Source: Suillus spraguei (Eukaryota; Basidiomycota; Agaricomycetes; Boletales; Suillaceae). Taken from it: 35,182 nucleotides of DNA. The translations under genes were made by a program, and so were the position numbers. Location: the NCBI GenBank assembly GCA_016800925.1, contig JABCPU010000611.1, forward strand, positions 1 to 35,182, written 5' to 3'. The notes beneath the pieces were generated by a model. The model made no database searches and was not told where the DNA came from. It was given only the letters and a program-made list of their open reading frames with translations. Below are positions 4,301 through 34,720 of the stretch, in pieces (positions within the stretch are counted from its first letter, which is position 1; each line of letters starts with the position of its first letter).

Positions 4301-5241
4301 GGCCTTACGAAGGGGGTAATTATTATCCCTTGTCTAAAACCGTCACTTCCGAAGGGATTGCTAAGCTATTTTTAAACATGTTTACCGTCGATTTGGACTC
4401 CATGACAAAGTCATCTCGGATCGAGGTCCACAGTTCCTATCGCGCTTTTCTAAAGAGCTTGCCCGACTTCTTGATTACATCATTGCTCCATCCACAGCTT
4501 ACCACCCTCAGACCGATGGTCAAACAGAAAGGCTAATCAAGAACTTGAAACATACCTACGCATCTATTGCCCAACAATCCTGAAGATTGGGTAGAACACC
4601 TACCAATCGCCGAATTTGTCCACAATCACCGAAAACATGATGCAAGAAATGCATCACCCTTTTATTTGATGATGGGATATGAACCATGCGCTATCCCTCA
4701 CCTTACCCTGATTCATCAGTCCCCGCAGCAGAAGATCGAGTACGATCCCTGCAGAAGATAAGAGAAGAAGCAATCGCCTGCCATAACATTGCAATGCAAA
4801 CAATGGCCGAACGATCCCGAGGAGATAAGTACATTCCATGGAAGATCGGAGATAAGGTTTGGTATCTGCTGCCAATCTTAGACTCAAACTCCCATCAAGG
4901 AAAATTGCGCCAAAACGATACAGACCTTTCCCGATCATCGATGTCTTATCACCCATCACGTTCACACTCAAACTCCCTCCACAGTGGAAAATTCATCCTA
5001 CGTTCCATGCTTCTGTCTTATCATCCTATAGCGAAACAGACGTACATGGTCCGAACTTCCCCGAACCACCACCTGACATCATCAAAGAAGAAGAAGAATA
5101 TGAAATAGAAGCAATTCTTTCTCACAAAGGAACCGGCACTCGCCGATGCTATCTGTTTCCTGGAAAGGATATTCACAGGAGATAATGAATGGCTCCAGAA
5201 AAGAACTTGAAGAACTCCGCTCAAATTTTGAATGCTTATAA
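1346..5241 (+). pseudogene. pol: Element A pol: PR-RT-RNase H-IN-chromodomain, frameshifted
   Basis: Domains in order: retropepsin at 1346-1570 with the DSG active site followed by GTFIS; an acidic linker to about 2400; RT at about 2560-3250 with the box GELRPCQDYR, KMDI and the catalytic YMDD at about 2987; RNase H at 3270-3760; integrase zinc domain at about 4045-4180 (HPGRF...CALCQQ) and core at about 4290-4560 ending in the DDE-type TDGQT box; and a chromodomain at 5090-5241. The stop is TAA at 5239. Many one-base deletions relative to copies B and C switch the frame, so no polyprotein can be made. The chromodomain suggests that this family targets its integration to chromatin; this is family knowledge rather than something seen here. 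Confidence 0.92.
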
Positions 5242-5313
5242 GAAGCAACACCCCTCTGATTATCCTTCAGTCAATCAACTCGCACTAGCACTTGATCAAC
5301 TAACACGTCTCAA

Positions 5314-6662
5314 ATGTCTTTCCCCACTGCATACATCACCCCCGTCACCGTTGCCAACAATGACTCTGACTCCTGAAGCTGAACAATATGGAACCTTGCC
5401 ACTGAAATCGACAACACCTCCTACATCGAAGCTGCCCTTCTATGTGAAGGACACGCCCTTGAAATTGAAAGAATCCTCACAGAAAGAGGTGCCTTCCCGG
5501 CCCTCCTCCTCATCAACATTATCTGTACCGCCGCCCTCATTGAAACCACAGCCAATGAAACCACTGACACTACATATCATCAATGCTTCTTACATCTTCA
5601 AAAACGCATTCGTTCTTACACTATGCTGTTGCTTCCCAGTTCTTTTAAAAGCGATGTTGAAGAAGCTATTCACATCGTGGCTGAACGTCGAGCAGGCGTT
5701 GCTCGACCTCCCTCTCCGAAGGAAGATGCGCCACTTCCTATTCCAGCACCTCTTCTTCACGCATGTATTCTAGTATTGATGCCCTTGCTGGCTTATGCAC
5801 TGCTGTCCAAGAGATTGGGCAGCTCACCAACGCGGTCGTTGAAACCATCCAGCACTCAGTCGCTGAAACCAGAGCAGCCAGAAACTTAGTCAAAGAAGCC
5901 ATCACTGATCTACAACAAACGCAAGACGACCTCGCTTCTCCCCGAACCCCATCTCCTATTGAAAAACCGACCTCACCGTCTCCCGTCATAGTCTCTCATG
6001 ACCATCCTGCATGGCTATACGAGCCCTGTACAGAAGAACAGTGTGAAGCTGCAAAGAGATTAGGGATTCCTGTTGCTGAGTTAATAGCACTAGGTCCTCG
6101 ACTTCATGACCTTCACATCCACCCTCCCATGTCTATCCCGTCATCATTTGGTCCAATGGATCCTGTCTCGCCAGTCTTAGTAAAAGACTTAGGTACCACC
6201 TCTCCCTCCTCCTCTAACGAACTCCTTGTGGTTGCTGAACGAGGGACCACTCCTGACCTCCCCGCATCCACGTACACTTTGACCAGCAAGCAACAGGCAC
6301 AGCTTCGACGCAACAATGCCTTCGCCTTAAAACGCATGACACGACGGAAAGGGAAGAAGCGTGCTGGATCCACCAGTCCTACACCCGTTATTTCACCATC
6401 ACCATTATGCATGTCCACTTCCAACACTGATGAAAACATGAAATGTCGACTCTGTGGCATGGTCAGACATCGGCAAAAGAATTGTCTCGACTATCAATGT
6501 CAAATCTGTCTGCGACACGCTCCTACCCATCTGTCCATTTACTGCCCTCAGCGTCGTGGGGAACCTCCGTTTACGCTTACCTGGAAGGACGATGGATTTT
6601 ATGATGCACTGCGTAGGTGGGAACAGTATCTTATTAACCGTCGACGACGAAAAGAAGGTTGA
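5314..6662 (+). pseudogene. Element A third ORF: zinc-knuckle protein downstream of pol
   Basis: This starts at the ATG at 5314, 73 bp after the pol stop. In this copy it is broken in its first third but open from 5763 to 6662 (about 300 codons). The product has a variable N-terminal part, a helical middle, a serine/proline-rich linker, a basic RRKGKKR tract, and a C-terminal pair of cysteine motifs. The first motif, CRLCGMVRHRQKNC, is a perfect CX2CX4HX4C knuckle; the second, CQICLRHAPTHLSIYC, is a CX2CX6HX4C variant. A TWKDDGFYDALRRWE box follows. The same ORF lies in the same place in copies B and C. The role is unknown; it sits where env lies in other elements, but has no signal peptide or fusion features. 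A second nucleocapsid-like or RNA-binding protein is the best guess. Confidence 0.75.
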
Positions 6663-7289: not shown

Positions 7290-7841
7290 TGCGGCATTAT
7301 GGTCCATTCATAAAGTCCTTTCAGTGTGTCAATTGCTGTATACTTGATGTCATCAGGGTGTACCCTCGTCTGAAAGAATGAATTAGTCATATCTATTTTA
7401 CCAAATTTTTTCTTTTGGCGCAGTCTCATAAGATTTCATCAACCCACGGGAGAGGGTGATTGTCTGGTATTGTGTTTGCATTCAGAGCATGGTAATCATT
7501 CACCCAATGTGGTAAGACTGTGGATCTTTCTTTGGGACTAGGAAGGCTGGCGACACAAAAGAACTTGAGGAAGGTCTTAGCTGTCCTGCCACGATATGCT
7601 GGTTGAGAAGAGCCTCCAAAGCTTTGCAATACTTGCAGGGCATGTTGTACTTATGGCATTGTATAATCTTGTTGGGGTCTTTAAGCCTTATTCGGTGGAT
7701 GACATCGGTTGGCAGTTGGTCGATGTGTGAAATGTCATCCGGGAATTGGTCCTCATACTTGTGACACATTTTGGCATTCAGATGTTGTAAGTGTTCTTCA
7801 ATGAAAGCCAGCATATCAATTTGTTGGCGAAGGACTGACAC
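7290..7841 (-). pseudogene. pol: Element D pol, RT N-terminal part, cut by element A
   Basis: Reading down the - strand there is an RT leader (PDDISHIDQLPTDVIHRIRL), a finger-domain SPAFLVPKKD, then WVNDYHALNANT and [18 protein letters not shown], and finally YEWTIMP, where the gene stops at 7290 against element A's LTR. These are the conserved blocks 1-3 of Ty3/gypsy RT; the YxDD block would lie beyond A. Frameshifts occur near 7430 and 7560. RT copies element RNA into DNA; this copy is dead because of the insertion and the frame breaks. Confidence 0.88.
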
Positions 7842-7913
7842 AACATTTGATACTTTAGTCGTGGTGTGCTTCTCATTGTTGTCGAGGCTTGTTGTAAGAA
7901 CAGTTTGAAGTTC

Positions 7914-9353
7914 TTAAATAACATTTTTACATAGTTGTAATACATCACGATGTGAGGGGATTGGGACTTGTATGCATTTTACGTGTTTGGGGGGATGTAA
8001 GAGGTCGTAATTCAAAGACTTGTTGATGCATGTGTGGAGTTCATGATCTATAAGGAGAAAATTATGTGATAAGAAAGGCTTCCAAAGGAGCAGGGGCACA
8101 ATGAGATTAGGCACAATTATTGCACATATGGTACGTGAATTCCAGTCATGATTTACAGACAAAGGAGACAAATGAACATATTCAGAAAAACAGAAAGAAG
8201 AATTGGCAGACAAGAGAAATGCAGAATTTGCCTCTATTGTGGTACACAGTTTGCGTCTCTGTAGACCAAGTTTAGTCACTAGGTCCTCATTAATAAGAAC
8301 TAGATGTGATCCATGATCAATTAAGGTGTCTACGCGCTCGAATGAAGCAGAAAGTGGTCCAGTCAAGAGACAAGGCCAGAACAAGTGGGGGGTTTCAAAA
8401 GGAGCCATGTACATATCATCCTTGGATTCAAAGATCTCTTCAATAACCAATGAAGGCATGACCGCTCCAATAGGTGCAACAATGGCAATGGGTTTTGACA
8501 TCTTGTAGGTTTTGGGCTTGGCAGCAAGAGCATCTGCTTCCATCAGGGCCTTATAAGAGGATGCATCAGGTGCGCCGTCAGTACACTCCCTTGACCTATG
8601 GGAGACGTAAAATTTGCGACACTTATTGCGACACTCAAAGCATCCATTGTGATCGGTTAGGAGGGTACGTTCAGCCTGCATAAGAGCTCCGAGGCGAGGT
8701 GTGGAAGTGTTTGTGTAACTATGAGGGTTGGGCTTGGGTAGGAAGTTGGAAGAAGTGGCACGTTTCATTTTATGTAAGTCTTCTGTGATTTTCCTGTGAG
8801 CAGCGAGATCTTCCATCCTCTTGTTGTCGAGGAGGTGAACCTCCTTGATCCATTGTTTGAGAGTCAGCATGCTCGCAAGGTTTGCTCTCATCACAGGTAC
8901 CATGAGTTTGTCACATAGACTAGCTTCTAGCTGATTGTGCAACTGTGCATCATTCAAGTGCAAAGTAGTACCAAACAGCAGGGAGTTCTGGTTTCGAAGT
9001 CCTAACGCCCATTCATAGAAGGGTCAGGATCCTTGTGGCGACCCAAGAACCTTCTTGTGAAGTTTCAGGTCCCAGTGCGCCTCGAGCCAGTCTTTCTTTA
9101 AAGCCTTCATGTAATCTTCAAAGGTCCCAATGTCTAGAGTAGCACATTGTGCGAGATACCAGGTGTGTAAGCGGTTGTCTTTCATTCCGAAGGCCACCAT
9201 TATAACTTGGTTCTTGGCTTTGATTTCTTTGTGCATGAAGTACATTAGGCAGGAATTTTCCCAATCTTGGGCTACCTCAGGCATGAAATCGCCGGCAAGT
9301 AGTTTGGGTGGTTTACTTGGGGCTGACTGGTTGACAGAAGCTGTGTGGGTCAT
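7914..9353 (-). pseudogene. gag: Element D gag C-terminal part and protease
   Basis: Continuous - strand frame apart from one TGA at 9024-9026. The first part is capsid-like (KLLAGDFMPEVAQDWENS and the following helices). Next come FYEWALGLRNQNSLL, a cysteine-rich box CFECRNKCRKFYVSHRSREC (C-X3-C-X6-H-X4-C, or CX2C with longer spacing), and at about 8290-8340 a retropepsin active-site region, VDTLIDHGSHLVLI. There the usual DS/TG reads DHG. That may be a family feature or damage; I cannot tell. The ORF continues to 7914 and connects by a short non-coding-looking gap to the RT part. The upstream end is cut at 9353 by element E. Confidence 0.82.
9349..9353. repeat. Target-site duplication of element E, left copy
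   Basis: GTCAT directly outside the left LTR. The same five bases follow the right LTR at 16336-16340. Five bases is the usual Ty3/gypsy duplication size. Confidence 0.92.
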
Positions 9354-10122
9354 TGTTAAGACTGTACTCAAGGGTAGAGAGATCCGAAGGGCTTTGGCCT
9401 CAGTTCGTACACTGTGCCCCTTTCTCGAGTAATGCCCCTTATTTCAGGGAGGAGTTATTCGTCCGAAGACCCGGAAGGAGTTGCGTGACGGATCCAGGTG
9501 TCCGAAGGTGTCGGATATGATACGTCCGAAGGTTATTCGGAACGTAAGGAGAGGACAGAGATTAAGGCTAGTTTCGGAACGAGTTCCTAACTAGAAACTA
9601 ACGGAGATGGACTATCCGAAGATAGAGTCAGAGGTATAGACTATAGGACTCAATCCTAAGTCTCGGAAGGTGACTTAAAGCGGAGAGTGGCTTAAGTCCG
9701 GAGGAGGCAGAATGAGTAGAATCTAAGATGATATTTGAACTAAGGTTCTATGGAGATCTACAAGTGATTTATATACTGTAAGTATCTAAGACGGATAATC
9801 AGCAAGTCCGGGACCAAGGGCTATGTACGAAGTGTAGCGGAAGTCTATTAGTTAATGCATAGCGGATCAGTAAGCATGAATCGGAAATGAACACAGGAAA
9901 CGGATCAGTAACACAGGACGGAAATATAAACAGCCAGAGTACCGGTAGCAGGAGAAATGACGAAAGGAGATAGACGCAGATGTACACAAGGGAGTTAAGG
10001 TGCGAGAAGTGAGTACATTCGGATGGGTGGTCCGGACAAGATCTGTGGACCAGACAGATATGGAAACGATCGGATCTGGACGGATATGGTCGGATCTGAG
10101 ATTAGAAGTATGGTATATGACA
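9354..10122 (-). repeat. 3' LTR of element E (769 bp)
   Basis: On the + strand it runs TGTTAAGACT to TATATGACA, and is the left-hand LTR of a - strand element. It holds a TATA box at 9768-9775 and the RNA-start 11-mer at 9731-9741, which here has one C-to-T change relative to the 5' LTR. Confidence 0.95.
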
Positions 10123-10126
10123 GTAT

Positions 10127-10135
10127 CCCCCCCTT
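10127..10135 (-). promoter_or_regulatory. Polypurine tract of element E
   Basis: On the - strand this reads AAGGGGGGG, separated from the 3' LTR by four bases. It is the expected primer for plus-strand synthesis and confirms that the left LTR is the 3' one. Confidence 0.65.
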
Positions 10136-10317
10136 AGGGCCGAACCCCTGAGGCACAAGAAGCGTCAATCCGGATTGGACAAGATTAATGCGAGACGATG
10201 GGGAAGTTTGATGGTTGTAGTGCTGAGTCTGTAATCCGACAGATATATGGACGTCAGACGTCTGAAATGATTCCTACCCCCACTTCATATCCTTGTTAAC
10301 AAAACTTGTCTCCAAAC

Positions 10318-11332
10318 ATGTCTGGAAAGAAATCCGATGCCCCTAAGTCTGCTGCTGACCTTGTGGCGGATCTGGAGCAGCAACTGGCGGCTGCTAAGGC
10401 TGCAGCGGAAGCTGAGGCGGAGCGGAAGCGGAAAGAGGCGGAGGAGCGGAAAAGGCAGGAGGAGTTGAAGCAGATTGAGTTGGCGGAGATCCGGAGGGAA
10501 ATGGAGGAGAAGAGGCGGAGAGCACTGATTGAGGCTCGGGTGAGTGCTGTGGACTCTTCCGGATCCGGATATTAATGGGTTGGCAAAGGCCAAGGCTGCT
10601 CCTGTGTCTGGAGCAAAGGATGGGTACTGCTCCCGTTGCGTCACTAAGGGCCGGATGTGCCAGTGGGGTGATGCTGAGAAGAATGCCATGGTGAGTCGTC
10701 CGAAAAACCTCGGATCCGCTGATTTCGACGTTTCGTAGATTAAGTCCTGTGACGTCTGCCAGAAGGACAAGGCCACTTGTCCTGGAAGGCCCGGATTCAT
10801 TAAGGGGCCCAAGGGCCGGAAGAGGCAGCGTCCTGCTGGTACTCCGTCTCCGAAGGGCAAAGGCAAGCGCCGTCAGAGGAGTCCTACTCCGGATGTGGCG
10901 GACGCGGATGTCTTCTCTAATCCAGTCACTATCGAAGGTATGGATGAGGATTTTGTGGAGTATGATGATCAGGCTTGGGTGGCTGCTGCTAATGGCATCA
11001 TTGCTGAGTTGGCGCGGACCAACGGACTTCTCCAAGATGGTATTGCGGCGGCGGAAGGGAGTCAGATTGCCATGGAGCGGATGAGCTCTACCATGGAGGC
11101 CTTCCTCCAGCAACAGAGGGAATTCCAGGCCCTGCTCATCGAGGAAATTCGGACCGGATTTAGGCTTTCCATTTCTGCCGGATCCGACAAGGATGGCGCT
11201 GGTGAGGAGATTGGGGAAGAGGTGGCGGATGAGAATGGAGGAGAGATGGCGGATGGGACTGGGGAGGAGATGGCGGATGGGACTGGGGAGGAGACTGGGG
11301 GTGCCGGAGGTGAAATGGAGACTGGAGCTTAG
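10318..11332 (+). CDS. Antisense three-exon gene in element E: coiled-coil, Zn2Cys6-like, acidic-tail protein
   Basis: Exons 10318-10539, 10589-10690 and 10739-11332 join in frame to 305 codons plus TAG. Both introns (49 and 48 bp) start with GTGAGT and end in AG; an acceptor 6 bp further on in intron 1 would also keep the frame. The ATG at 10318 has A at -3 and a pyrimidine-rich stretch upstream. Residues about 15-70 are Ala/Glu/Arg/Lys-rich and predicted coiled coil. Cysteines 88, 91, 98, 112, 115 and 122 form C-X2-C-X6-C-X13-C-X2-C-X6-C, close to the fungal Zn(II)2Cys6 cluster (usual middle spacing 5-12). A Lys/Arg-rich nuclear-signal-like stretch spans about 126-150. The C terminus has a helical part and an acidic tail built on a 24-bp repeat at about 11240-11300. 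It converges on the integrase gene, whose stop lies 57 bp away. A DNA-binding or regulatory role is an inference. Confidence 0.72.
10540..10588 (+). other. Intron 1 of the antisense gene
   Basis: GTGAGT donor, ATTAATG branch-like sequence, AAAG acceptor; 49 bp. Read as coding, the frame meets TAA at 10573. An alternative acceptor at 10594 also keeps the frame. Confidence 0.6.
10691..10738 (+). other. Intron 2 of the antisense gene
   Basis: GTGAGT donor, GCTGAT branch-like sequence, CGTAG acceptor; 48 bp. Removing it places the two cysteine triplets 13 residues apart and keeps the frame. Confidence 0.7.
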
Positions 11333-11389
11333 TCCAGATCCGGATTTCCGCTACTGCCCTCAATGTACTTATATTTCGTTATGTACTCT

Positions 11390-12547
11390 TCAAGCAATGG
11401 GACCAGGCTTGTCCGGATATGCTGAGTGGAAATCCGCTACGAGATCCGATGCATTTCCGAGTTCTGTGGCCAGTAACCAGGAAGTTTCTTCGTCCGTTCC
11501 TTCGTATCCGGACCAACGGACGAGGTATAGAAGTTGGCAGTGGTGCCTACGACGGTCCAGTTTAGAGTCCAGGATTTCGGATATCTCGTACTCTGGTTCT
11601 CCGTCGACTTCCACTGGTGGCGGAGGAGGTTGGATGCGATTGGGAATGGTGTTCAGAACTGCTGGCTCTAACTGCGAGACATGGAAAACAGGATGTACGG
11701 AACGCATAGAATCCGGAAGTCGGATGGCGAAAGAATGAGTACCCGGGCGGGATATAATTTCGAATGGTCCCAAATTCTTTTCCGAAAGTTTCTTCGATGG
11801 ACGAGTGGAGCGGAAGTACTTGGCTTTGACGAAGACTTGTTCTCCAATCCGGAAGTCTGGAGCAGGCTGTCTTTTAGCATCCGTGGGTCCTTGATAGCGT
11901 TTCTGAGCTTCGGACATCTCATCTTGGAGGAACTGGTGAAGTTTGTTAAGGTCTAGGGCATATTCCTGGGCACGGATGGAGGATAGGTCGCGTTCCGGAT
12001 GGATGGAAATGTTCGGATGATAACCTTTATTGGCGAAGAAAGGTGAAACTCCGGTAGTGGCACTCGGAGCATTATTGTATGCAAACTCTGCGAGGGGCAG
12101 CAGCTCAGACCAGTTGTCCTGCTGATAGTTGCAGTAGATCCGGAGGTACTGTTCCAGCATTTGGTTGGCACGTTCTGTTTGTCCGTCCCCTTCGGGATGA
12201 TATCCGGATGTGAAGTGTAGGACCATGTCCAATGCCTTTCCTAGGGAACGGAAGAAGTGGGATACGAACTCTGTTCCTCGATCCGAGGTTACATGGGACG
12301 GGACTCCATGCTTAGAGAAGACATGGAGGAGAAATAGACGGGCGAGATCAGGAGAAGTAATGGTGTCGTGGGTCGGGACGAATATGGCTTGCTTGGATAA
12401 ACGATCTATGATGACAAGGATGGCTGTAAAGCCAGATGAGTCCGGAAGTTGTTCAATGAAATCCATAGAGATGGAATTCCATGGTTTTTCTGGGACGGGA
12501 AGTTGCTTGAGTAGACCGTAGGGCTTATGTCTCGGAACTTTGGCTCA
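11390..12547 (-). CDS. pol: Element E integrase core and chromodomain (end of pol)
   Basis: Open from the TGA at 12545-12547 to the stop at 11390. The integrase core has its first Asp in MDFIEQLP, the second in SDRGTEF and the Glu in GQTERANQMLEQYL, giving a full DDE triad. A GPFEI-type C-terminal domain follows, then a proline tract and a complete chromodomain (EPEYEISEIL...YLVRWSGY...TSWL). Integrase inserts the cDNA, and the chromodomain is known in chromoviruses to bind modified histones. The upstream part of pol is cut off only by single TGA codons, so this may be translated poorly or not at all. It converges with the antisense gene. Confidence 0.9.
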
Positions 12548-12901
12548 GGCGCAGGATGTGCAGGATCTGACATACTCTTTGACAAAGGCTCGTACTCTGG
12601 GCCAGGTATAGTTGCGTCGGATGAGCTCGAGAGTACAATTCTGTCCGAAATGTCCGGATAGGGGGTGGTCATGGCAATTCCGGAGGATGCGAAGTTGTAG
12701 ATCATTGGTATCCGGAATGTAGATGCGGTTGTCACAACAAAGGAATCCACCATCGTCTATTGTCCATCTCGGATCTGAAGGAACCGTAAAATGTGTTTGT
12801 GCAATGGGGTCATGAGGGAGTGCTATCAGAATGTCTTTCCGGAGGTGTTCGGTGTCCATAAGAACAGCTGCTCTAAGGACCGGAGTTGCTAAAATGGAAG
12901 C
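12548..12901 (-). pseudogene. pol: Element E integrase zinc-binding domain between two nonsense codons
   Basis: The - strand frame carries the integrase HHCC domain: HDHPLSGHFGQ, LELIRRNYTWPRVR and CTSC. Directly upstream is a TGA at 12902-12904 and directly downstream a TGA at 12545-12547. Family sequence has Arg at each place, so both look like CGA-to-TGA changes. Without these two codons the frame would run unbroken from the RNase H remnant into the integrase core. Confidence 0.88.
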
Positions 12902-14232
12902 TCATAGGGACGAAGCTAATTGTTCTGAAGCAAATATTGGACGGAGGTTGTGAGGGTTAATCTGAGCGTAGTCCTTATCCCCCTCTTTAGGGTAGACGTC
13001 CCATCGTTTAGTGAGGGAATCTGGCTTGACTCCAAGTCTTCCAGGACAGTAACGGATAACGAGGTTGAACTGATGGAGGAACTCGGACCAGCGGGCCTGA
13101 CGACGGGATAGCAGTTTGGTGGTTAAGGCCGCGGAAATCCACACAAAGGCGGAGGGATCCATCCTTCTTTTGACAAATAGGACGGGGGCTCCGTGGGGAG
13201 AAGATGAGGAGCGGAGGAGTCCGGACGAGATGTTTTCGTCAAGGAACTTCCGGAGGGCCTCAAGCTCTACCGGAGAAAGAGAGTATATGGTTCCGAGAGG
13301 CGGACTAGCCCCTTCTTCCAACTCAATCTTGAGATCGTAGGGTCGATGTGGGGGAAGTTGTCCGGCTTTGCCTTTGTCGAAGACATCCGCAAATTCATGG
13401 TAGTTGGAAGGGATTCTAGAGAGGTCTGGAGGATCGGATGATATGGATGCGGATCGAAGGTTTACTTCGGAGGGACAGAGGTAGATGCTGAACTGAGTAG
13501 ATCCTTCTAACTTGCAGGCACGGCAAAAGGCCACTGTGTTTATCAACGATATGTTAGGGACTGGGGTACCAGCGGAGGGTTCGGATTTGGTCAGAGGCGG
13601 AGTCTCTGCCACGGATGGGGTGCTCTGAGGCGACGGAGATTTTGGAGGGGAGGAATCTTCCTTGGGTGGAATACCCAAAGGTAACAGAGGTGTCGGATTG
13701 GATTTTCCTGCCATGGTCGGTGTGTCTGGAGGCAGCGGTGATGCGGATGGGGTTAATGGCACTCCTTGTTCAGTAGTTCGGAACTCGATGCTGCCCAATA
13801 CCCAGTCAATCAACGGATTGTGTCGGGTGAGCCAGCTATATCCGAGAACGATATAACATGAGGAATCCAAAGGGGTGACGTAGAATGTGTCGGAAGTGAT
13901 TACACCGGAGGAGAATCGGACGGATAAGTTTATGGCTTCGACAATATTGTTATTGCATGTACCATCAAATAAACGGAGTGGAAGCGGAGGAATCTGATAG
14001 GTAGGAATTTTATGTTCTCGGACGAAATCAGTGTCTATGAAGCAGTGGGAGGAACCACAGTCTATGAGGGCCGGAAAGTCAGATATATTGGAGAAAGATG
14101 GAAGAGAGACATATGGACACAGAGAGTTCGGATCAGGAAGAGTTACAGCGTTGAGTCGTAGTTCCGTTGCACGGGTTGGGCCAACGCGACCCTCATCCCG
14201 TACGGAGTCAGGAGGGTCGCGGACTAATTTTT
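12902..14232 (-). pseudogene. pol: Element E pol N-terminal part: protease and deleted RT/RNase H
   Basis: The frame is entered by -1 slippage from gag. The protease shows ALIDCGSSHCFID, with Cys where DSG or DTG is usual, and later YIVLGYSWLTRHNPLIDW. A proline/serine linker is followed by the pre-RT YHEFADVFDK and HRPYDLKIEL segment, then SSPHGAPVLFVK, the start of RT. At about 13121 the sequence jumps from the RT block around VDFRGLN to the end of RNase H (TTKLLSRRQARWSEFL). The palm, the YxDD site and nearly all of RNase H are therefore missing. A one-base deletion just before this junction is compensated across it, so the ORF stays open to the TGA at 12902. Confidence 0.9.
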
Positions 14233-14233
14233 T
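14185..14233 (-). promoter_or_regulatory. -1 ribosomal frameshift signal between gag and pol of element E
   Basis: On the - strand, the heptamer A AAA AAT in the gag frame (14227-14233) is immediately followed by the gag TAG. Slipping back one base enters the pol frame. A 5-nt spacer (14222-14226) separates it from a perfect 10-bp GC-rich stem, CGCGACCCTC with GAGGGTCGCG (14212-14221 with 14185-14194), with a 17-nt loop. Heptamer pattern, spacing and stem match the known signal layout. Confidence 0.85.
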
Positions 14234-15516
14234 GCCTCATCCGAGGCTTCCAGTTCCGTTTCCGGAGTGAGCACAGTAGCGCGGCCTTTGGCAGCGTGCG
14301 AAGTGGATTTGGTGCATTCCCGGGCAGTGTGACCAGGTCCGCTGCAGAACATACAGAGCCTTTTGTCAATACGTCTCTGACACTCCTGGGTGGTTAGCTT
14401 TCCGTCCGCACCAACAACGCTAGGGAGATCCGAAACTTTCGGGGCAGAGGATGTTGTGGAGGATGTGGGTTTATTGAATTTGGGCGTATCGGATCCGGAT
14501 GAGTTGGAACTCGTCCGGTCGGATGTTGACTGCCTGGGAGGATTGGAAGAGGTGGTTCTACTCTCTCGGGTGACTTCGCCCCTCCGTTCCCAGTAACAGG
14601 TGTCGATGGTCTTGGCGAGAGTCTTGAACTCCGAAAAAGTAGTGGGCTTACCCATGCGACTAATCTCATCTTTGATTCGGGCCGGAAGTCCATTGTAGAA
14701 TTGGCATCGTAGGGCTCCGTCTCCCCATTCGCGTACTTGGGAGGCAAGTCGCTGGAATTCTACAACGTACTTGTTGATCCGTTGTCCGTCACGCATGTGG
14801 AGTTGTTCTAACTGCATCTCTGCGTCTCCGGAGGGATTGTGTGGTCCAAAATTGGTTTGGAGCTCGAGCATGAACTCGGAGTAGTCATCCATCCAGTCCG
14901 GACGGTTGCTATATCCGTCCGAAAGGAGGTCCGGTTCAAACCACTCGAGAGCCATACCCTTAAGGTAGGATTGGGCGAAATTGACTTTAGCGCGTCCGGA
15001 ACGGAAAGCGCTAGGTTTGCTCTGGAAGTTGAGCTCACATTGGACGAAGAATGCCCGGAGCTTGCAAGGTTCGGACCCATCGAAGGTATCTGGCTCACGG
15101 ATTTTGACTTTGCTATCATCCAAGGTGGGGGTACGACGGCTACTGCGAGCGAGGTGGTTAATGGCTACGGATAGTTGGGCTAGGACCTGGTCCTGAGGGC
15201 TCAGGTGGATTTTATCTTCTTCGTCATCCAGGTCCTTATTGTCCGGATCATCAACTTCATCATCTGGTAGGTTACTGCGCAGCTCATCATCAAAGCAAAT
15301 GGTCGGGCGCGAATTGGAGTCTGGGTTATCCGGGTTCCGAGTTGGTGTTATCGGATCCGGTCTGACTTGACGGGCGGAGATACTTTGACCTATGTCGCTC
15401 ATGCTTGCGCGGCGTTGAGAGAAACTGGTGAATGTTTGGACGATGGGTGTGGGATCTCGTTGGATCGGACCAAGTCCGGCTCCTCGGAGTGTGTTTTGAG
15501 TTTTACGGGGAGGCAT
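14224..15516 (-). CDS. gag: Element E Gag polyprotein (430 aa), intact
   Basis: Unbroken 430-codon frame from the ATG at 15514-15516, about 50 bp inside the 5' LTR, to TAG. An acidic N-terminal stretch is followed by the retrotransposon capsid domain (about residues 135-290; FDGSEPCKLRAFFVQCELNF, KGMALEWFEP, EFMLELQTNFG, QYVVEF-like helix, FYNGLP). Next comes a Ser/Thr-rich linker and one zinc knuckle, CMFCSGPGHTAREC (CX2CX4HX4C), near residue 395. It forms the particle shell and binds element RNA. It has no disabling change, unlike pol. It ends on the frameshift signal. Confidence 0.95.
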   Translation of the reverse strand: MPPRKTQNTLRGAGLGPIQRDPTPIVQTFTSFSQRRASMSDIGQSISARQVRPDPITPTRNPDNPDSNSRPTICFDDELRSNLPDDEVDDPDNKDLDDEEDKIHLSPQDQVLAQLSVAINHLARSSRRTPTLDDSKVKIREPDTFDGSEPCKLRAFFVQCELNFQSKPSAFRSGRAKVNFAQSYLKGMALEWFEPDLLSDGYSNRPDWMDDYSEFMLELQTNFGPHNPSGDAEMQLEQLHMRDGQRINKYVVEFQRLASQVREWGDGALRCQFYNGLPARIKDEISRMGKPTTFSEFKTLAKTIDTCYWERRGEVTRESRTTSSNPPRQSTSDRTSSNSSGSDTPKFNKPTSSTTSSAPKVSDLPSVVGADGKLTTQECQRRIDKRLCMFCSGPGHTARECTKSTSHAAKGRATVLTPETELEASDEAKN

Positions 15517-15553
15517 GATATGGGATGGTTGCTAAGTTACTCGGAAAGGTTTG

Positions 15554-15564
15554 AGTTCGAATAT
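15554..15564 (-). promoter_or_regulatory. Self-priming primer-binding site of element E
   Basis: Two bases inside the 5' LTR edge. The + strand reads AGTTCGAATAT, a perfect 11-nt inverted match to ATATTCGAACT at 15944-15954 in the 5' LTR. That site begins 27 bp downstream (element sense) of the TATA box, so the RNA 5' end can pair with this site as in Tf1-type self-priming. Confidence 0.78.
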
Positions 15565-15566
15565 AC

Positions 15567-16335
15567 TATTAAGACTGTACTCAAGGGTAGAGAGATCCGA
15601 AGGGCTTTGGCCTCAGTTCGTACACTGTGCCCCTTTCTCGAGTAATGCCCCTTATTTCAGGGAGGAGTTATTCGTCCGAAGACCCGGAAGGAGTTGCGTG
15701 ACGGATCCGGGTGTCCGAAGGTGTCGGATATGATACGTCCGAAGGTTATTCGGAACGTAAGGAGAGGACAGAGATTAAGGCTAGTTTCAGAACGAGTTCC
15801 TAACTAGAAACTAACGGAGATGGACTATCCGAAGATAGAGTCGGAGATATAGACTATAGGAATCAATCCTAAGTCTTGGAAGGTGACTTAAAGTGGAAAG
15901 TGGCTTAAGTCCGGAGGAGGCAGAATGAGTAGAATCTAAGATGATATTCGAACTAAGGTTCTACGGAGATCTACAAGTGATTTATATACTGTAAGTATCT
16001 AAGACTAATAATCAGCAAGTCCGGGACCGAGGGCTATGTACGAAGTGTAGCGGAAGTCTATTAGTTAATGCACAGCGGATCAGTAAGCATGAATCGGAAA
16101 TGAACACAGGAAACGGATCAGTAACACAGGATGGAAATATAAACAGCCAGAGTACCGGTAGCAGGAGAAATGACGAAAGGAGATAGACGCAGATGTACAC
16201 AAGGGAGTTAAGGTGCGAGAAGTGAGTACATTCGGATGGGTGGTCCAGACAAGATCTGTGGACCGGACAGATATGGAAATGATCGGATCTGGACGGATAT
16301 GGTCGGATCTGAGATTAGAGGTATGGTATATGACA
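15567..16335 (-). repeat. 5' LTR of element E (769 bp)
   Basis: Same length as the left copy, no indels. The element-sense promoter is in this copy: TATATAAA at 15981-15988, and the predicted RNA start at 15954. The outer edge is followed by GTCAT. Confidence 0.95.
15981..15988 (-). promoter_or_regulatory. TATA box of element E
   Basis: TATATAAA on the - strand, 27 bp before the 11-mer that pairs with the primer site. The same 27-bp spacing holds in the 3' LTR (9768 to 9741) and in the solo LTR (22285 to 22258). Confidence 0.7.
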
Positions 16336-16340
16336 GTCAT
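16336..16340. repeat. Target-site duplication of element E, right copy
   Basis: GTCAT, matching 9349-9353. Removing E and one copy rejoins element D's gag in frame. Confidence 0.92.
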
Positions 16341-26477: not shown

Positions 26478-26949
26478 TGTTACGAACTGGGGTGGCGTCA
26501 CCAGCGACAGTGAAAAGACACAGACGGTCTGCTGGGAGTTCTTACAATATCCAGAAGAGGATAAGGTGAAAGTACAAGGAACGCGTTCCGAGTACGATCA
26601 AGGGTTCAGCCTCAATGAGAGTCAAGAGGTATCCGCGAGAATAGAGACTAAGGCTAAGGAGTGCTTAGACTTAGAGACGATTCAAGACGACTTAGGTTGG
26701 GGACCTAAGCGAAGGAGATTCCAGGTAAAACCCAGTAAGATTAAAGTAGGGAATCTACTACAAGTACACTGTGCTTAAATAGGCCAATATGTGCGCACAG
26801 ACCAAGAGAGACATGAGAATGTAAGTGCGTATCCAAAGAAGGAAGGCAACTATAGTACAGATGCGTTGAGCATATGAGTCGGATCATGTTACGTAATATA
26901 CAAGGTAAATGAAGTAAGAAAATGAATAGGGGTATGTACGATTGTAACA
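26478..26949 (-). repeat. LTR of copy B (472 bp)
   Basis: Reverse complement of the A-family LTR, bounded by TGTTACGAAC and GATTGTAACA. It directly interrupts the gag/protease fragment at GTCGAC. The polypurine tract AAAAAGGGG follows on the inner side at about 26950-26962. Confidence 0.93.
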
Positions 26950-27035
26950 TTACCCCTTTTTATACGTAAAGTCACCGACTTTACTCATCTTGGTTCGCAT
27001 AGTAAACCGGATCATCACTCCATTCGTAGTCTTCG

Positions 27036-28436
27036 TCAGCAAAGGATCCACTCCTCATATACCGGCTTCTTCCAGACCAGCGCGTCGTTTGGAGTCCCTT
27101 CTCTTTTCTGCTTGAATACGTTCATCGTCAAGCTGCTGCTCCCAAGCGTGAGTGCGTCATAGAATCCCTCGTCTTTCCAAGTTAACTCGAAGGGAGGGGC
27201 CCAACTCGTTTGGGCAATAAAGAGATAAATGAGTCGGCGACCAATACCTGCAAACCTTGCACTGATATTCCGCACAATTCTTTTGACGATGTCCTAGCAA
27301 CCCACAGACCGGCACTTCATATTCTCGTCAGGGTTGGAATGAACTTTGCGTAAGGGAGACGGAGAAATGATAGGCGTAGGGCTAGTAGATCTGGCGCGCT
27401 TCTTTCCCTTGTTCTTCTTCATACGTTTTAAGGCAAGGGTGTTAGCTCGCTTGAGTTGCGCCTGTTGAGTGGGAGATAACGTGTATGCTGACATGGGGAG
27501 GTCCGGGGTAACTGCTCGTTCAGCAGCAGTAAGAAGCTCGTCGGAGGAAGATGAGGAAGTTATGCCAAATCTTTTACTAAGACCGGTGAGACAGGGTCCA
27601 TTGGACCGAATGACGATGGAATAGACATTGGGGGATGTATGTGAAGGTCGCGAAGTCGAGGGCCGAGTGTTACAACTCAGTGGTAGGGATACCTAGTAAT
27701 TTAGCGGCCTCGCACTGCTCTTTTGTGCAGGGTTCATACAGCCAATCAGGGCAGTCAAGAGAGGTCGTGGCGGGAGGTGTGAAGCTGGTCGTTCGATGGG
27801 AGATGGGGTTCGAGGAGATGCAAGGTCTGCTTGTGTCTGCTGCAAATCAGTGATGGCTTCTTCCACTAGGTTTCTGCTGCTCTGGTTTCAGCGACTGACT
27901 GCTGGATGGTATCGACAACTGTATTGGTGAGTTGCCCAATTTCTTGCACAGCAGGTGTAAGCCAGCAAAGGCATCAAGACTAGAATAGATGCGCGAAGAG
28001 CGGGTGCTGGAACAGGAAGTGGCATATCTCTTTGCGGAGAGGGAGGTCGAGCAACGCCTGCTCGACGTTCGGCAATGATGTGAATAGCTTCTTCAACATC
28101 ATTCTTAAAGGAATCGGGAAGCAACAGCATAGCGTAAGCACGAATGCGTTTTTGGAGATGAATGAAACGGTGACGGAGTGTGATTTCTGTAGTTTCTTTG
28201 GCAGTGGCTTCGATGAGGGCTGCAGTGCGGATGATGTTAACATGAGTAGAGCGGGGAAGGCACCTCTTTCGGTGAGAATTCTGTCGATTTCGAGGGCATG
28301 TCCCTCACAGAGGATGGCGGCTTCGATGTAAGAGTATTGTCGATTTCTGCAGTGAGAGTTCCATATTGTTCAGCTTCAGAGTCGGAGTCGTTGGTGGCAG
28401 CACGACGGGTGTAATGTAAGCAGTGGGGAAAGACAT
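27036..28436 (-). pseudogene. Copy B third ORF: zinc-knuckle protein
   Basis: Starts at the ATG 28434-28436 and ends near 27040 on the - strand, with frameshifts. It shares with A's third ORF the conserved segment MLLLPDSFKNDVEEAIHII, the NKGKKRARSTSPTP basic tract, DENMKCR before the first knuckle, and the terminal TWKDEGFYDAL box. Several one-base differences from copy C break the frame at different places. Confidence 0.72.
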
Positions 28437-28508
28437 TTCAATGTTGGTAGTTGATCAAGTGCTAGTGCGAGTTGATTGACTGAAGGTAATCAGAGGGCAT
28501 GTTGCTTC

Positions 28509-30833
28509 TTATAAGCATTCAGGATTCGAGCGGAGTTCTTCAAGTTCTTTTCTGGGAGCCATTCGTTATCTCCCGATGAATATCCTTTCCAGGAGACAAG
28601 ATAGCGTCGGCGATTGCCGGTTCCTTTGTGAGAAAGAATGCTTCATTTCATATTCTTCTTCTTCTTCGATGATGTCAGGTGGTGGTTCGGGGAAGTTCGG
28701 CCGTGTACGTCTGTTTCGCTATAGGATGATAAGACAGAAGCATGGAACGTGGGTGGATTTTCCACTGCGGAGGGAGTTGAGTGTGAACGTGATGGGAGAT
28801 AAGACATCGATGATCGGGAAAGGTCCGTATCGTTTGGGGCAGTTTCCTTGATGGGAGTTTGAGTCTAAGATTAGCGGCAGATAGCCAAACCTTATCTCCG
28901 ATCTTCCATGGGTGTACTTATCTCCTCGGGATCGTTCGGCCATTGTCTGCATTGCAATGTTATGACAGGCGATTGCTTCTTCTCTTATCTTCTGCAGAGA
29001 TCGTACTCGATCTTCTGCTGCGGGACGGATGAATCAGGGATAAGGTGGGGATAGCGCGTGGTTCGTATCCCATCATCAAATAGAAGGGTGATGCATTCCT
29101 TGCATCGTGTTTTCGGTGGTTGTGGACGAATTCGGCGATTGGTAGGTGTTCTACCCAATCTTCAGGGTTGTTACGGCAGTAGATGCGAGGTATGTTTCAA
29201 GTTCTTGATTAGCCTTTCGTTTGACCATCAGTCTGTGGGTGATAAGCCGTGGATGGAGCGATGACGTAGTCGAGAAGTCGGGCAAGTTCCTTTGAGAAGC
29301 GAGATAGGAATTGCGGTCCTCGATCCGAGATGACTTTGTCATGGAGTCCAAATCGTCGGTAAACATGTTTTAAAAATAGCTTAGCCACACCTTCTGAAGT
29401 GATGGTTTTCAAACAAGGGATAATAATTACCCCCTTCGTAAGGCCATGGTCTACCACGACCATGATACTGTCAAAGCCTCCAGAGACAGGGAGGTCAGTG
29501 ATAAGATCAACAGAGACCTGGGAGAACGGGCGAACAGCCGACGAGGGAATAGGCGGAGCGGGGTCGAACAGGATGAGTATCCGCTTTCATTTGCTGACAA
29601 AGGGCGCAACCCTCAACGTATTTCCGAATATAAGAGCCCATTGCAGGCCACCAGGCTTCCGTTTGACGAGTTCTTCAGTTTTGAATCTACCGGGGTGTCC
29701 CGCGGTAGGATGATCATGATACCTTTTCAGGATATCGGAGCGATGCGCCGGTGGAATATAGGCGCGATTCTTAAAATAGAGGACGTTCTCCTCAATCTTC
29801 CAGTCAGAGAGTGCCGATTTCATAGGGGGAAGGCACACGCCATCAAGGGCATCAGACGCCGTCTTGAAGACAGGGTCGTCGAGGGGTCAGAGGATGACAG
29901 CACATCCTTCAGTCGGTGTCAATAAGACGAACGAATAGAGCGTCAGGGAGGAGGGTCTGGTCCTCGTTATCGTCTTTGCCAGAGTCATAGTCAGGCCGGC
30001 GGGATAGTGCATCAGGTACTGCTAATTTAGTACCTGCAACGTGATGCAGTTCGATGTCATAAATAGACAAAATCAATTGCCAACGTGCTTGGCGACGGGT
30101 AAGCTTCTGTGCACTTCTAAAGTACAGAAGGTTCTTATGGTCGGTGAATACCAGGACGGGTGTGGGTTTCCTTCGAGATAATGACGCCATTCGTTCAATG
30201 CCCGGATCACGGCAAGGAGTTCCCGATCAAAGATCTGGTAATTGCGTTCTGCGGGGTTCAAAGACTGTGAGAGGTATGCACATGGGTGATAAACACCATT
30301 CTCATCAGTTGTAGAGAACTCCGCCAGTTGCTACGAGCGAAGCGTCGGTAGCAATGGCAAATTGTCGGGAAGGATCAGGGTTACGGAGTACCGGTTGGGA
30401 AGTGAAGCGTCGTTTCAATTCTTCGAAGGTGTCCATACATTCGGTTGACCATTCAAAGGCCTTATCTTTCTTTGTCAAATCGATAAGGGGTCTGGCGATG
30501 TCAGAATAGTGGGAAATGAACGTGCGGTAGAAGTTGCAAAAACCGAGGAATGACCGAACATCTTTTACAGATTTCGGGATTGGCCATTCGGAGATTCCCT
30601 TGGTTTGGCGGTGTCCATAGCAACTTGTCCGGGGCGAATTATCATTCCGAGGTATTCCACTTCTTCTGCATCGAAGGTGCATTTCTCCGGTTTCAAGAAC
30701 AGATGTTCTTTCGTATTTTCATCAAAACTCGTCTGTCCGTTCACGGTGTTCTGCCATTGTGTAGAGAAAATCAGGATATCGTCCATATAGATAACCATCC
30801 ATCCTTCATTATTTGTATTTCTTGTTGAAAGGT
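28509..30833 (-). pseudogene. pol: Copy B pol from RT active site to chromodomain
   Basis: From the fold-back centre outward: VIYMDDILIF of RT at about 30770-30800, [22 protein letters not shown], the RNase H starting [11 protein letters not shown], the tethering [21 protein letters not shown], integrase zinc domain (HPGRFKTEELVKR) and core ([10 protein letters not shown]...SDRGPQF...HPQTDGQT), chromodomain remnant, and TAA at 28509-28511. Everything upstream of the RT palm is absent. Frameshifts are scattered throughout. Confidence 0.88.
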
Positions 30834-33208
30834 TGAACGAATCATGTTCTTGAGTTCTGGAATTAGCAACTTTTCAAGCATACATGAATCGCACCTTTCA
30901 ACAAGAAATCAATGAAGGATGGATGGTTATCTAATGGACGATATCCTGATTTTCTCTACACAATGGCAGAACACCGTGAACGGACAGACGAGTTTTGATG
31001 AAAATACGAAAAGAACACTGTTCTTGAAACCGGAGAAATGCACCTTCGATGCAGAAGAAGTGGAATACCTCGGAATGATAATTCGCCCCGGACAAGTTGC
31101 TATGGACACCGCCAAGACCAAGGGAATCTCCGAATGGCCAATCCCGAAATCTGTAAAAGATGTTCGGTCATTCCTCGGTTTTTGCAACTTCTACCGCACG
31201 TTCATTTCCCACTATTCTGACATCGCCGACCCCTTATCGATTTGACAAAGAAAGATAAGGCCTTTGAATGGTCAACCGAATGTATGGACACCTTCGAAGA
31301 ATTGAAACGACGCTTCACTTCCCAACCGGTACTCCGTAACCCTGATCCTTCCCGACAATTTGCCATTGCTACCGACGCTTCGCTCGTAGCAACTGGCGGA
31401 GTTCTCTGCAGACTGATGAGAATGGTGTTTATCACCCATGTGCATACTCTCACAGTCTTTGAACCCCGCAGAACGCAATTACCAGATCTTTGATCGGGAA
31501 CTCCTTGCCGTGATCCGGGCATTGAACGAATGGCGTCATTATCTCGAAGGAAACCCACACCCGTCCTGGTATTCACCGACCATAAGAACCTTCTGTACTT
31601 TAGAAGTGCACAGAAGCTTACCCGTCGCCAAGCACGTTGGCAATTGATTTTGTCTATTTACGACATCGAACTGCATCACGTTGCAGGTACTAAATTAGCA
31701 GTACCTGATGCACTATCCCGCCGGCCTGACTATGACTCTGGCAAAGACGATAACGAGGACCAGACCCTCCTCCCTGACGCTCTATTCGTTCGTCTTATTG
31801 ACACCGACTTGAAGGATGTGCTGTCATCCTCTGACCCCCTCGACGACCCTGTCTTCAAACAGCGTCTGATGCCCTTGATGGCGTGTGCCTTCCCCTATGA
31901 AATCGGCACTCTCTGATTGGAAGATTGAGGAGAACGTCCTCTATTTTAAGAATCGCGCCTATATTCCACCGGCGCATCGCTCCGATATCCTGAAAAGGTA
32001 TCATGATCATCCTACCGCGGGACACCCCGGTAGATTCAAAACTGAAGAACTCGTCAAACGGAAGCCTGGTGGCCTGCATGGGCTCTTATATTCGGAAATA
32101 CGTTGAGGGTTGCGCCCTTTGTCAGCAAATGAAAGCGGATACTCATCCTGTTCGACCCCCGCTCCGCCTATTCCCTCGTCGGCTGTTCGCCCGTTCTCCC
32201 AGGTCTCTGTGATCTTATCACTGACCTCCCGTCTCTGGAGGCTTTGACAGTATCATGGTCGTGGTAGACCATGGCCTTACGAAGGGGGTAATTATTATCC
32301 CTTGTTTGAAAACCATCACTTCAGAAGGTGTGGCTAAGCTATTTTTAAAACATGTTTACCGACGATTTGGACTCCATGACAAAGTCATCTCGGATCGAGG
32401 ACCGCAATTCCTATCTCGCTTCTCAAAGGAACTTGCCCGACTTCTCGACTACGTCATCGCTCCATCCACGGCTTACCACCCCAGACTGATGGTCAAACGG
32501 AAAGGCTAATCAAGAACTTGAAACATACCTCGCATCTATTGCCGCAACAACCCTGAAGATTGGGTAGAACACCTACCAATCGCCGAATTCGTCCACAACC
32601 ACCGAAAACACGATGCAAGAATGCATCACCCTTCTATTTGATGATGGGATACGAACCACGCGCTATCCCTCACCTTATCCCTGATTCATCCGTCCCCGCA
32701 GCAGAAGATCGAGTACGATCTCTGCAGAAGATAAGAGAAGAAGCAATCGCCTGTCATAACATTGCAATGCAGACAATGGCCGAACGATCCCGAGGAGATA
32801 AGTACACCCATGGAAGATCGGAGATAAGGTTTGGCTATCTGCCGCTAATCTTAGACTCAAACTCCCATCAAGGAAACTGCCCGAAACGATACGGACCTTT
32901 CCCGATCATCGATGTCTTATCCCCATCACGTTCACACTCAACTCCCCCGCAGTGGAAAATTCACCCACGTTCCATGCTTCTGTCTTATCATCCTATAGCG
33001 AAACAGACGTACACGGCCGAACTTCCCGAACCACCACCTGACATCATCGAAGAAGAAGAAGAATATGAAATCGAAGCAATCCTTTCTCACAAAGGAACCG
33101 GCAATCGCCGACGTTATCTTGTTTCCTGGAAAGGATATCATCGGGAGATAACGAATGGCTCCCAGAAAAGAACTTGAAGAACTCCGCTCGAATCTTGAAT
33201 GCTTATAA
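30834..33208 (+). pseudogene. pol: Copy C pol from RT active site to chromodomain
   Basis: Starts inside RT around the NSPATFQAYMN-equivalent region. A one-base deletion next to the catalytic Tyr puts MDD out of frame with its upstream sequence. RNase H ([14 protein letters not shown]), the [19 protein letters not shown] segment, integrase zinc domain, integrase core with SDRGPQF, and the chromodomain ending in TAA at 33206-33208 can all be followed across frames. It is the mirror image of copy B. Confidence 0.88.
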
Positions 33209-33277
33209 GAAGCAACACGCCCTCTGATTATCCTCAGTCAATCAACCGCATAGCACTTGATCAACTACCACTTCGAA

Positions 33278-34582
33278 ATGTCTTTCCCCACTGCCTACAT
33301 TACCCCCGTCACTGTTGCCACCAATGACTCCGACTCTGAAGCAGAACAATACGGAACCCTTACCGCAGAAATCGATAACCTCCTACATCGAAGCCGCCAT
33401 CCTCTGCGAGGGACATGCCCTCGAAATCGAAAGAATTCTCACGAAAGAGGCGCTTCCCCGCCTACTCATCGTTAACATCATCCGCACTGCAGCCCTCATC
33501 GAAGCCACCGCAAAGAAACTACAGAAATCACACTCCGTCACCGTTTCATTCATCTCCAAAAACGCATTCGTGCTTACGCTATGCTGTTGCTTCCCGATTC
33601 TTTTAAGAATGATGTTGAAGAAGCTATTCACATCATTGCCGAACGTCGAGCAGGCGTTGCTCGACCTCCCTCTCCGCAGAAGATACGCCACTTCCTATTC
33701 CAGCACCCCTTCTTCGCGTTTATTCTAGTCTTGACGCCTTTACTGGCCTATACACTGCTGTCAAGAAATCGGGCAACTCACCAAACAGTTGTCGAACCAT
33801 CCAGCAATCAGTCGCTGAAACCAGAGCGGCAGAAACTAGTAGAAGAAGCTATCCTGATTACAACAAAGCAAGTGATCTTGCTCTCCTCGAACCCATCCCC
33901 TATCGAACATCAACTTCATCACTCCCCACGTCTCTTGATGCCCTGATTGGCTGTATGAACCTGCACAGAAGACAGTGTGAGGCCGCTAAACTATTAGGTA
34001 TCCCTGCCACTGAGTTGGTAACACTCGGCCCTCGACTTCGCGACCTTCATATCACCCCCATGTCTATCCATCGTCATTCGGTCCTATGGATCCCGTTTCA
34101 CCAGTCTTAGTAAAAGACTTCGGCATCACTTCCCCTCTTCTCCACCGAACTTCTTGCGCTGCTGAACGAGCAGTTACCCCGGACTCCCCATGTCAGCATA
34201 CACTTGTCCTCCGCTCAACAGGCGCAACTTAAGCGAGCAACACCCTTGCCTTAAAACGTATGAGAAGAATAAGGGAAAGAAGCGCGCCAGATCCACTAGT
34301 CCCACCCCATCATTCTCCGTCCCCTTACGCAAAGTCATTCCAACCCTGACGAGAAATGAAGTGCCGTCTGTGGATTGCTAGGACATCGTCAAAGAATTGG
34401 CGGAATATCAGTGCAGGTTTGCAGATATTGGTCGCCCACTCATTTATCCCTCTACTGCCCTAACCGAGTTGGGCCTCCTCCCTTCGAGTTAACTTGGAAA
34501 GATGAAGGATTCTATGACGCACTTCGCTTGGGAGAAACAGCTTGACGATGAACGTATTCAGCAGAAAAGAGAAGGACTCTAA
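33278..34582 (+). pseudogene. Copy C third ORF: zinc-knuckle protein
   Basis: ATG at 33278, 69 bp after the pol stop, to TAA at 34580-34582. The N terminus MSFPTAYITPVTVATNDSDS is better preserved here than in A. ALEIERILTKEALPRLLI, an FKNDVEEAIHIIAERRAGVA helix, the KKRARSTSPTP tract and the cysteine pair region near 34365-34455 are recognisable across several frameshifts. Confidence 0.72.
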
Positions 34583-34708
34583 ACGACGCGCTGGTCTTGA
34601 AGAAGCTAAGTATATGATGAGTGGATCTTTGCTGATGAAGACTACGAATGAGCGATGATCCCGTTTACTATGCGAATCAAAGTGAGTAAAGTCGGTGACT
34701 TTACGTGT

Positions 34709-34718: not shown

Positions 34719-34720
34719 AA

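Follow-up and report, generated by a model that had tools for sequence, protein, structure and literature searches.

Element E, a chromodomain LTR retrotransposon of the ectomycorrhizal mushroom Suillus spraguei, contains a gene that runs against its own transcript. In our leading reading, to which as a whole we give about an even chance, this is an antisense accessory gene with two predicted introns that is held under selection, and its predicted zinc-cluster product likely binds the CGGA words with which E is filled.

The window, that is, the whole stretch of DNA analysed here, is one entire contig of 35,182 bp, and the genome searched comprised 86.2 Mb in 1256 contigs. A public S. spraguei protein, P0002, matches contig C467 of this genome at 99% over 195 residues. 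Direct reading places a GTCAT target-site duplication on either side of E (9349–9353 and 16336–16340), and the two LTRs are identical at 750 of 769 positions (Table 1). Read on the + strand, the 3′ LTR lies just upstream of the antisense gene; the polypurine tract, also read directly, is the complement of CCCCCCC at 10127–10133, and no short inverted repeats were found within 9300–10400. Judged by Pfam domains alone, E is a chromovirus with a Ty3-type gag, a protease and an integrase with a C-terminal chromodomain (PF00385, 25.3 bits against a cut-off of 25.1). PF00665, PF24626, PF19259 and PF12384 each scored above their own Pfam cut-offs, and a zinc-knuckle match in gag fell under its cut-off. 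The pol region of the window copy lies in a single frame and, as an earlier note on this DNA had described in terms of two nonsense codons and a large deletion, it has two internal stops and lacks part of RT/RNase H; an internal stop of the integrase adjoins 12545. In other copies, the frames open at the pol position reach 1271 aa.

Table 1 Features of element E and its antisense gene on the 35,182-bp contig.
Feature	Position	Strand	Basis
Element E, chromodomain LTR retrotransposon	9354–16335	-	
3′ LTR, 769 bp, TG..CA ends	9354–10122	-	LTR comparison and direct reading
Region with polypurine tract and predicted promoter/5′ UTR of the antisense gene, 195 bp	10123–10317	+	promoter role putative
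Exon 1, charged coiled-coil-like N-terminus, residues 1–74	10318–10539	+	by eye
Intron 1, GTGAGT...AAG, 49 nt	10540–10588	+	predicted
Exon 2, first cysteine triplet C88-x2-C91-x6-C98	10589–10690	+	spliced translation
Intron 2, GTGAGT...TAG, 48 nt	10691–10738	+	predicted
Exon 3, second triplet C112-x2-C115-x6-C122, basic stretch, EYDDQAWVAAAN helix, acidic tail, stop	10739–11332	+	
Integrase: H2C2 zinc-binding, rve core, Tf2-1-like SH3, chromodomain	11390–12901	-	ORFs and Pfam
Protease and RT/RNase H remains, large deletion	12902–14236	-	ORFs and Pfam
gag, Ty3-type capsid match	14224–15531	-	ORFs and Pfam
5′ LTR	15567–16335	-	LTR comparison

The antisense gene occupies 10318–11332 of the + strand, between integrase and the 3′ LTR, with its ATG at 10318 and its stop at 11330–11332, which confirms the three-exon model and the coordinates proposed in the earlier note. 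Both introns have the GTGAGT donors and nearly the length of about 50 bp that the note gave them (49 and 48 nt), and spliced translation agrees that the exons join in frame to 305 codons. Alternative acceptors likewise keep the frame, and the acceptor of intron 1 is weak, being AAG rather than YAG. The exon 1–2 junction of the window gene is the same in P0003, a public S. spraguei protein. At the intron 2 point, several public Suillus proteins, among them P0004, P0005 and P0012, are continuous (NxxIKSCD/VKACD), as the TAG acceptor gives, and P0006 and P0010 differ from the window gene. Because the proteins of other Suillus run continuously across this point, we favour the 305-codon form over a 303-codon form. 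The integrase frame ends at 11390, so that the two genes lie tail to tail with 57 bp between their stops; the antisense ATG is 195 bp outside the 3′ LTR. The EYDDQAWVAAAN helix of exon 3 is conserved. Across the gene, the minus strand also holds an open frame of 318 aa.

Genome searches with three relatives of the protein returned at least 138, at least 140 and at least 138 matches, and the merged list holds at least 145 antisense-gene loci. The gene is convergent within 2 kb in 89 of 109 integrase hit rows (which count loci C469 and C456 as two pieces each) and lies on the same strand in none. Twelve of the 20 rows without a listed gene were inspected, and all 12 have the gene or a remnant of it; among the eight others, C685 gave a gene match in a later search. 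Convergent integrase accompanies the gene in 13 of 14 diverged loci, one after a gap of about 1 kb, and was absent from the convergent place within the stretch inspected at L050. The two-intron model was recovered in seven of ten loci tried; the models for L056 and L057 came out odd, and L061, which has nonsense codons in exon 1, yielded none. By eye, intron 2 has the same position and phase in the window gene and the diverged L049/L050 lineage, and intron 1 is absent from L049, whose integrase is 77% identical. Extra residues at the place of intron 2 in P0024, a relative of P0011, suggest that intron 2 also exists, unspliced, in a third lineage. All database relatives with an organism name are Suillus hypothetical proteins, and many others are metagenome proteins, in a search that reaches only those relatives that have short words in common with the query and a similar length.

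For comparisons among close copies, we used the best 40 of 220 candidates (97–100% identity, window copy included), picked by similarity to the antisense gene, a choice that favours intact genes. In all of them the gene is flanked by LTR and integrase sequence, with gaps or only in part in L021, L042 and L043; on contig C1160 (21.6 kb), two of the E-family copies, L016 and L023, lie close together and inverted. The GT and AG of both introns are present in 40 of 40 close copies, as expected if splicing of the sense strand cannot remove antisense introns, and as the earlier note had argued in holding that such introns survive retrotransposition. The gene is intact in 26 of the 40 and carries one-base exon indels in the other 14; integrase segments are clean in 12 of the 38 copies that entered the integrase comparison. 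Frameshifting indels number 17 in gene exons and 46 in integrase (p = 0.003 per base and copy). Decay thus hits both genes, and the intactness of the window copy alone is no evidence of function: the contrast that the note drew between an intact gene and a broken pol holds for this copy but is not special to it.

Among non-CpG variants shared by at least two of the 40 close copies, we counted 27 synonymous and 4 nonsynonymous changes in the gene, and 25 and 4 in integrase; private variants split 23:15 in the gene (40 copies) and 25:18 plus three stops in integrase (38 copies). Even if all mutations are assumed to be transitions, the ratios in the gene remain significant (shared, p = 5e-10; private, p = 4e-4). 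Clear constraint on CpG transitions in the gene was not seen, with 17 synonymous to 21 nonsynonymous shared (p = 0.10) and 16:30 private, against 31:61 expected. The comparison of dN/dS between copies that had been suggested as a test gave 0.11–0.28 for exon 3 when the window copy was set against 10 diverged copies of the family, in a table without L057 and L062 of the 14 diverged loci, which have no clean exon 3 start and both look frameshifted. L049 and L050 have about 48% of exon 3 residues in common with the window copy; against them, dN/dS was 0.18–0.20 with dS saturated, and it was 0.48 between the two. Frame comparisons in six pairs gave pN/pS of 0.15–0.53 for the gene's own frame and 0.7–1.4 for the 318-aa minus-strand frame. 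Another minus frame, at 0.25–0.70, contains stops, and its low values are expected from the third codon positions that it has in common with the gene. Judged by variant ratios, dN/dS and frame comparisons, selection keeps up the antisense gene in the replicating lineage about as it does integrase. Together with the conservation seen among copies, this purifying selection strongly supports the earlier claim of a real coding gene rather than a decayed sense ORF.

The window protein contains exactly six cysteines, C88-x2-C91-x6-C98-x13-C112-x2-C115-x6-C122, a spacing that agrees with the Zn2Cys6 rule (C-x2-C-x6-C-x5-16-C-x2-C-x6-8-C). They are followed by a basic stretch at residues 126–160 (12 K/R against 1 D/E), a conserved helix region and an acidic tail. 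The Pfam family Zn_clus reached 21.2 bits in the relative P0011 (cut-off 21), the other nine relatives in the same test were below the cut-off or had no match, and five of 12 aligned members matched at E values up to 1. The window protein itself scored 10.9 bits in its 303-residue form, below the cut-off of 21, and its 305-residue form matched no Pfam family; the Pfam scan found no bZIP, TRP28 or SMC domain. When cysteine pieces were searched separately, four of ten matched Zn_clus, and neither of the two from the window protein did. In P0002, the first triplet resembles positions 16–35 of the profile (E 0.0054; the best match of this piece is an integrin PSI domain, below that domain's own cut-off) and the second resembles positions 2–18 (E 0.018). 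The ACDxCRxxKxxC half matches Zn_clus in relatives. No Zn_clus match spans both triplets in the window protein or in ten relatives tested, and the order of the halves seems not to be the canonical one; mainly through one relative, the data suggest that the halves of the zinc cluster are in swapped order. For the relative P0001, AlphaFold2 was confident about one long helix only, giving the cysteine region a pLDDT of about 50–70; Foldseek found no match in the PDB, and the sole matches of a PDB sequence search had E values of 0.64–0.66. The product is predicted to be a zinc-cluster DNA-binding protein.

The DNA of E is dense in a word that contains CGG. The whole element has 235 CGGA/TCCG sites against 69.7 ± 8.1 in dinucleotide shuffles, and CGGA is the top enriched 4-mer in five of five segments (LTR, antisense gene, both pol parts and gag), by 2.9–4.4-fold over the shuffles. 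Enrichment in gag, pol and the gene is about as high as in the LTR (4.1-fold; 28 sites against 6.7–6.9 expected); the 195 bp at 10123–10317 have 3 sites against 1.6 expected. Six 1-kb bins fully inside E hold 26–40 sites per kb and the two end-straddling bins 23 and 12, and density drops at the element boundaries to 1–9 outside E, except for 16 in the bin 1001–2000. More than half of the CpGs of E (206 of 388) fall inside the motif, compared with 12.5–13.8% in three other parts of the window. In gag and pol, the sites are found in each of the three codon frames. In gag, pol5, int and the antisense CDS, none of 1000 codon- and protein-preserving shuffles had as many sites as the real sequence, and in the short intN 8 of 1000 did; four control ORFs of the window had no excess by the same procedure. 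Codon usage alone is therefore rejected as the source of the CGGA excess. The other LTR-element family of the window, the single family compared, has CGGA at only 0.8–0.9 times expectation, which rejects CGGA as a general window feature; one host exon used as a control had 10 sites against 6.9 ± 2.4 expected.

The diverged loci L049 and L050 bear on the age of this pattern. CCAGA and CTGGA are among their top 5-mers, and CGGA ranks third and second, respectively, among their 4-mers; as the two 5-mers are CpG-decay forms of CCGGA, this suggests an old CGGA saturation in both. A CGGA-rich LTR of L050's own lineage was rejected as a candidate, 371 bp of that stretch being an inverted LTR of the window family; recounted without it, L050 has 17 sites against 6.5 expected. 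Motif CpGs had decayed at 7.9% and other CpGs at 5.8% in close copies, and at 43.6% and 44.9% in diverged ones; the reverse comparison gave 15.9% against 17.3% and 18.5% against 18.4%. We therefore saw no protection of motif CpGs after insertion, their decay being equal or slightly faster in close copies, and rejected such protection as an explanation. The excess more likely arose in the active lineage than through the sparing of old copies.

A second LTR family with the same word exists elsewhere in the genome, read here from a single copy, L075, and a 0.9-kb piece of another, L076. The LTR of L075 (150–1500) is about 1.34 kb long, had 2180 first-look candidates, and carries a CGGAGGAG-type tandem array; with the array left out, it has 36 CGGA sites against 7.8 expected, and the DNA beyond it has 1 against 3.4. 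Its alignment with the E LTR is limited to 59 bp plus a few stretches of at most 27 bp. The internal DNA of the second member (L076, 1–901, contig C225), which lies between two LTRs about 6 kb apart, has 30 sites against 5.9 expected and no long ORF within the 0.9-kb piece, and the element looks non-autonomous.

The other LTR-element family of the window is present as two regions, 84–85% identical; its integrase has a Tf2-1-like SH3 match, and its chromodomain scores 20.2 bits against the cut-off of 25.1 in a broken copy. At 26600–35182, two copies of this family face each other as a near-perfect inverted pair centred near 30860, with arms mostly 97–100% complementary, which may reflect inverted duplication or an artefact of assembly. 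Extra frames on the sense strand follow its integrase at 5189–6662 and 33261–34110, with a cysteine-rich end in the left copy; the two tested matched no Pfam family above its cut-off and are perhaps a different accessory gene at the same element position. Beside E, 7290–9348 contains apparent remains of another minus-strand LTR element (frames at 7500–9443, by eye) with no CGGA enrichment (3 sites against 5.5 expected).

A zinc-cluster-like protein encoded by a CGG-rich element suggests that the protein binds the element's own DNA, since CGG triplets are described as typical targets of Zn2Cys6 proteins in the consulted sections of PMC5559640; this link between protein and word is circumstantial. 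The window protein resembles the fungal Zn2Cys6 proteins in its six cysteines and two C-x2-C-x6-C triplets, and CGGA contains the half-site CGG, but its halves are seemingly reversed and it scores below the Zn_clus cut-off. The separate transcription that the earlier note deduced from the introns is an inference; in the mechanism we propose, the antisense gene would be transcribed from the 3′ LTR side of integrated DNA. Transcription from that side would hide its introns from sense-RNA splicing, so that they would persist through each round of reverse transcription. The protein would enter the nucleus by means of its basic stretch, dimerise through its helices and bind integrated copies at CGGA sites. 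Most probably, copies would thereby be kept accessible or have their transcription regulated; we favour such anti-silencing or self-regulation because the CGGA sites are not confined to the LTR. If there are CGGA-tagged relatives that lack the gene, they would be exploiting this protein as well. A bolder version, which we regard as tentative and less probable than the reading above, is that a permuted zinc-cluster protein from an antisense, intron-bearing gene reads more than 200 CGGA words as part of a self-labelling system independent of VANC and HBZ, and that non-autonomous CGGA elements parasitise it.

Several other explanations share parts of this evidence. The gene could be an antisense regulator like HBZ, spliced from the 3′ LTR side, nuclear, and tuning sense transcription at the 5′ LTR only, with the coding CGGA sites otherwise caused; its location, orientation and splicing resemble those of HBZ as outlined in PMC3185765, and the LTR does have four times the expected sites. 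Regulation through the LTR alone would need none of the enrichment seen in gag, pol and the gene, which equals that of the LTR, and with no bZIP match and an ATG outside the LTR we consider this reading unlikely. Equally unlikely in our estimate is that the accessory gene is real and the CGGA saturation a compositional or mutational peculiarity of the clade, unrelated to the protein. The protein–motif link does draw on a general preference of zinc-cluster proteins for CGG, and the controls were one host exon and one other LTR-element family of the window. Yet the enrichment survives control for dinucleotides and codon usage, is seen in each of the three codon frames of both gag and pol, falls off where the element ends, and recurs in LTR and internal DNA that is largely non-alignable with E; another point against a compositional cause is that motif CpGs are not protected from decay. 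There is a smaller chance still that the protein serves the particle or the pre-integration complex, as a nucleic-acid chaperone or as an import factor, rather than acting on transcription or chromatin. The basic stretch would suit such roles, which are discussed for plant antisense proteins in the relevant part of PMC7264820, but they leave the CGGA saturation on both DNA strands unexplained.

Two further accounts fare worse. Introns would suit a host gene that the element had captured or that had been domesticated out of it, but the multiplicity of the gene (at least 145 loci), the integrase beside it in 13 of 14 diverged loci and the exclusively Suillus hypothetical proteins among its organism-named relatives led us to reject this origin as very improbable. 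A decayed sense ORF or a chance open frame, for which the 318-aa minus-strand frame might speak, is rejected by the pN/pS of that frame in comparison with the gene's own, and its probability is negligible.

Antisense accessory genes as such are already known in plants and in the fungal Boty elements, as presented in PMC7264820. In plant Gypsy elements, the aORF-3R genes (Grande gene23, RIRE2, Retand ORF4/TRP28 and PvRetro13) lie antisense in the interval between pol and the 3′ LTR, are conserved and present in most copies, and are suspected of a nuclear or DNA-binding role, according to the relevant sections of PMC7264820 and PMC11963269. The E gene has the same orientation and place, occurs in most family copies and is conserved like the other element proteins; it differs in its introns, its zinc-cluster-like motif and the element-wide DNA word, and the Pfam scan showed neither TRP28 nor SMC in it. 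The chromodomain-bearing Boty-like elements of Botrytis cinerea contain brtn, an additional antisense gene, in the accounts available to us (PMC7264820, PMC8365987, PMC4227169, PMC5987419). Likened by description, brtn and the E gene are both antisense genes of fungal chromodomain elements, the Boty host being an ascomycete. The earlier note knew of no fungal case with introns: this part stands, as we found no description, in the open-licence literature, of the E gene itself, of introns in an antisense accessory gene or of a basidiomycete case, but a fungal antisense gene as such was already on record in the brtn passage of PMC7264820. Among retroviruses, HBZ and other HTLV antisense proteins are antisense, spliced nuclear regulators in the portion of PMC3185765 that we used. 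HBZ belongs to the bZIP proteins, and its major form has its start within the 3′ LTR; the E protein shares neither this domain nor this start site.

The closest working parallel comes from the VANDALs, which are DNA transposons. In the cited portions of PMC5735166 and PMC10398659, VANC of the Arabidopsis VANDALs recognizes a motif that abounds in its own family and is seldom met in the remaining transposable elements, and its binding removes silencing. E likewise encodes a protein of its own and holds a short word in high density. VANDAL motifs lie mainly in non-coding DNA and tandem repeats, whereas the CGGA of E also runs throughout coding DNA. Rarity in other elements holds for E against one LTR family in the window, and the second LTR family elsewhere has CGGA; anti-silencing is shown for VANC and is proposed for the E protein.

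How transposons recognize their own copies and deal with them is an open question, and E contains a candidate protein together with a candidate address label. With more than 100 gene loci, a second CGGA family and a CGGA-poor neighbour as a control, self-recognition in fungal retrotransposons becomes directly testable. By the sequence evidence, introns on the antisense strand can survive rounds of retrotransposition in a lineage that replicates; the case would also extend antisense accessory genes to a basidiomycete.
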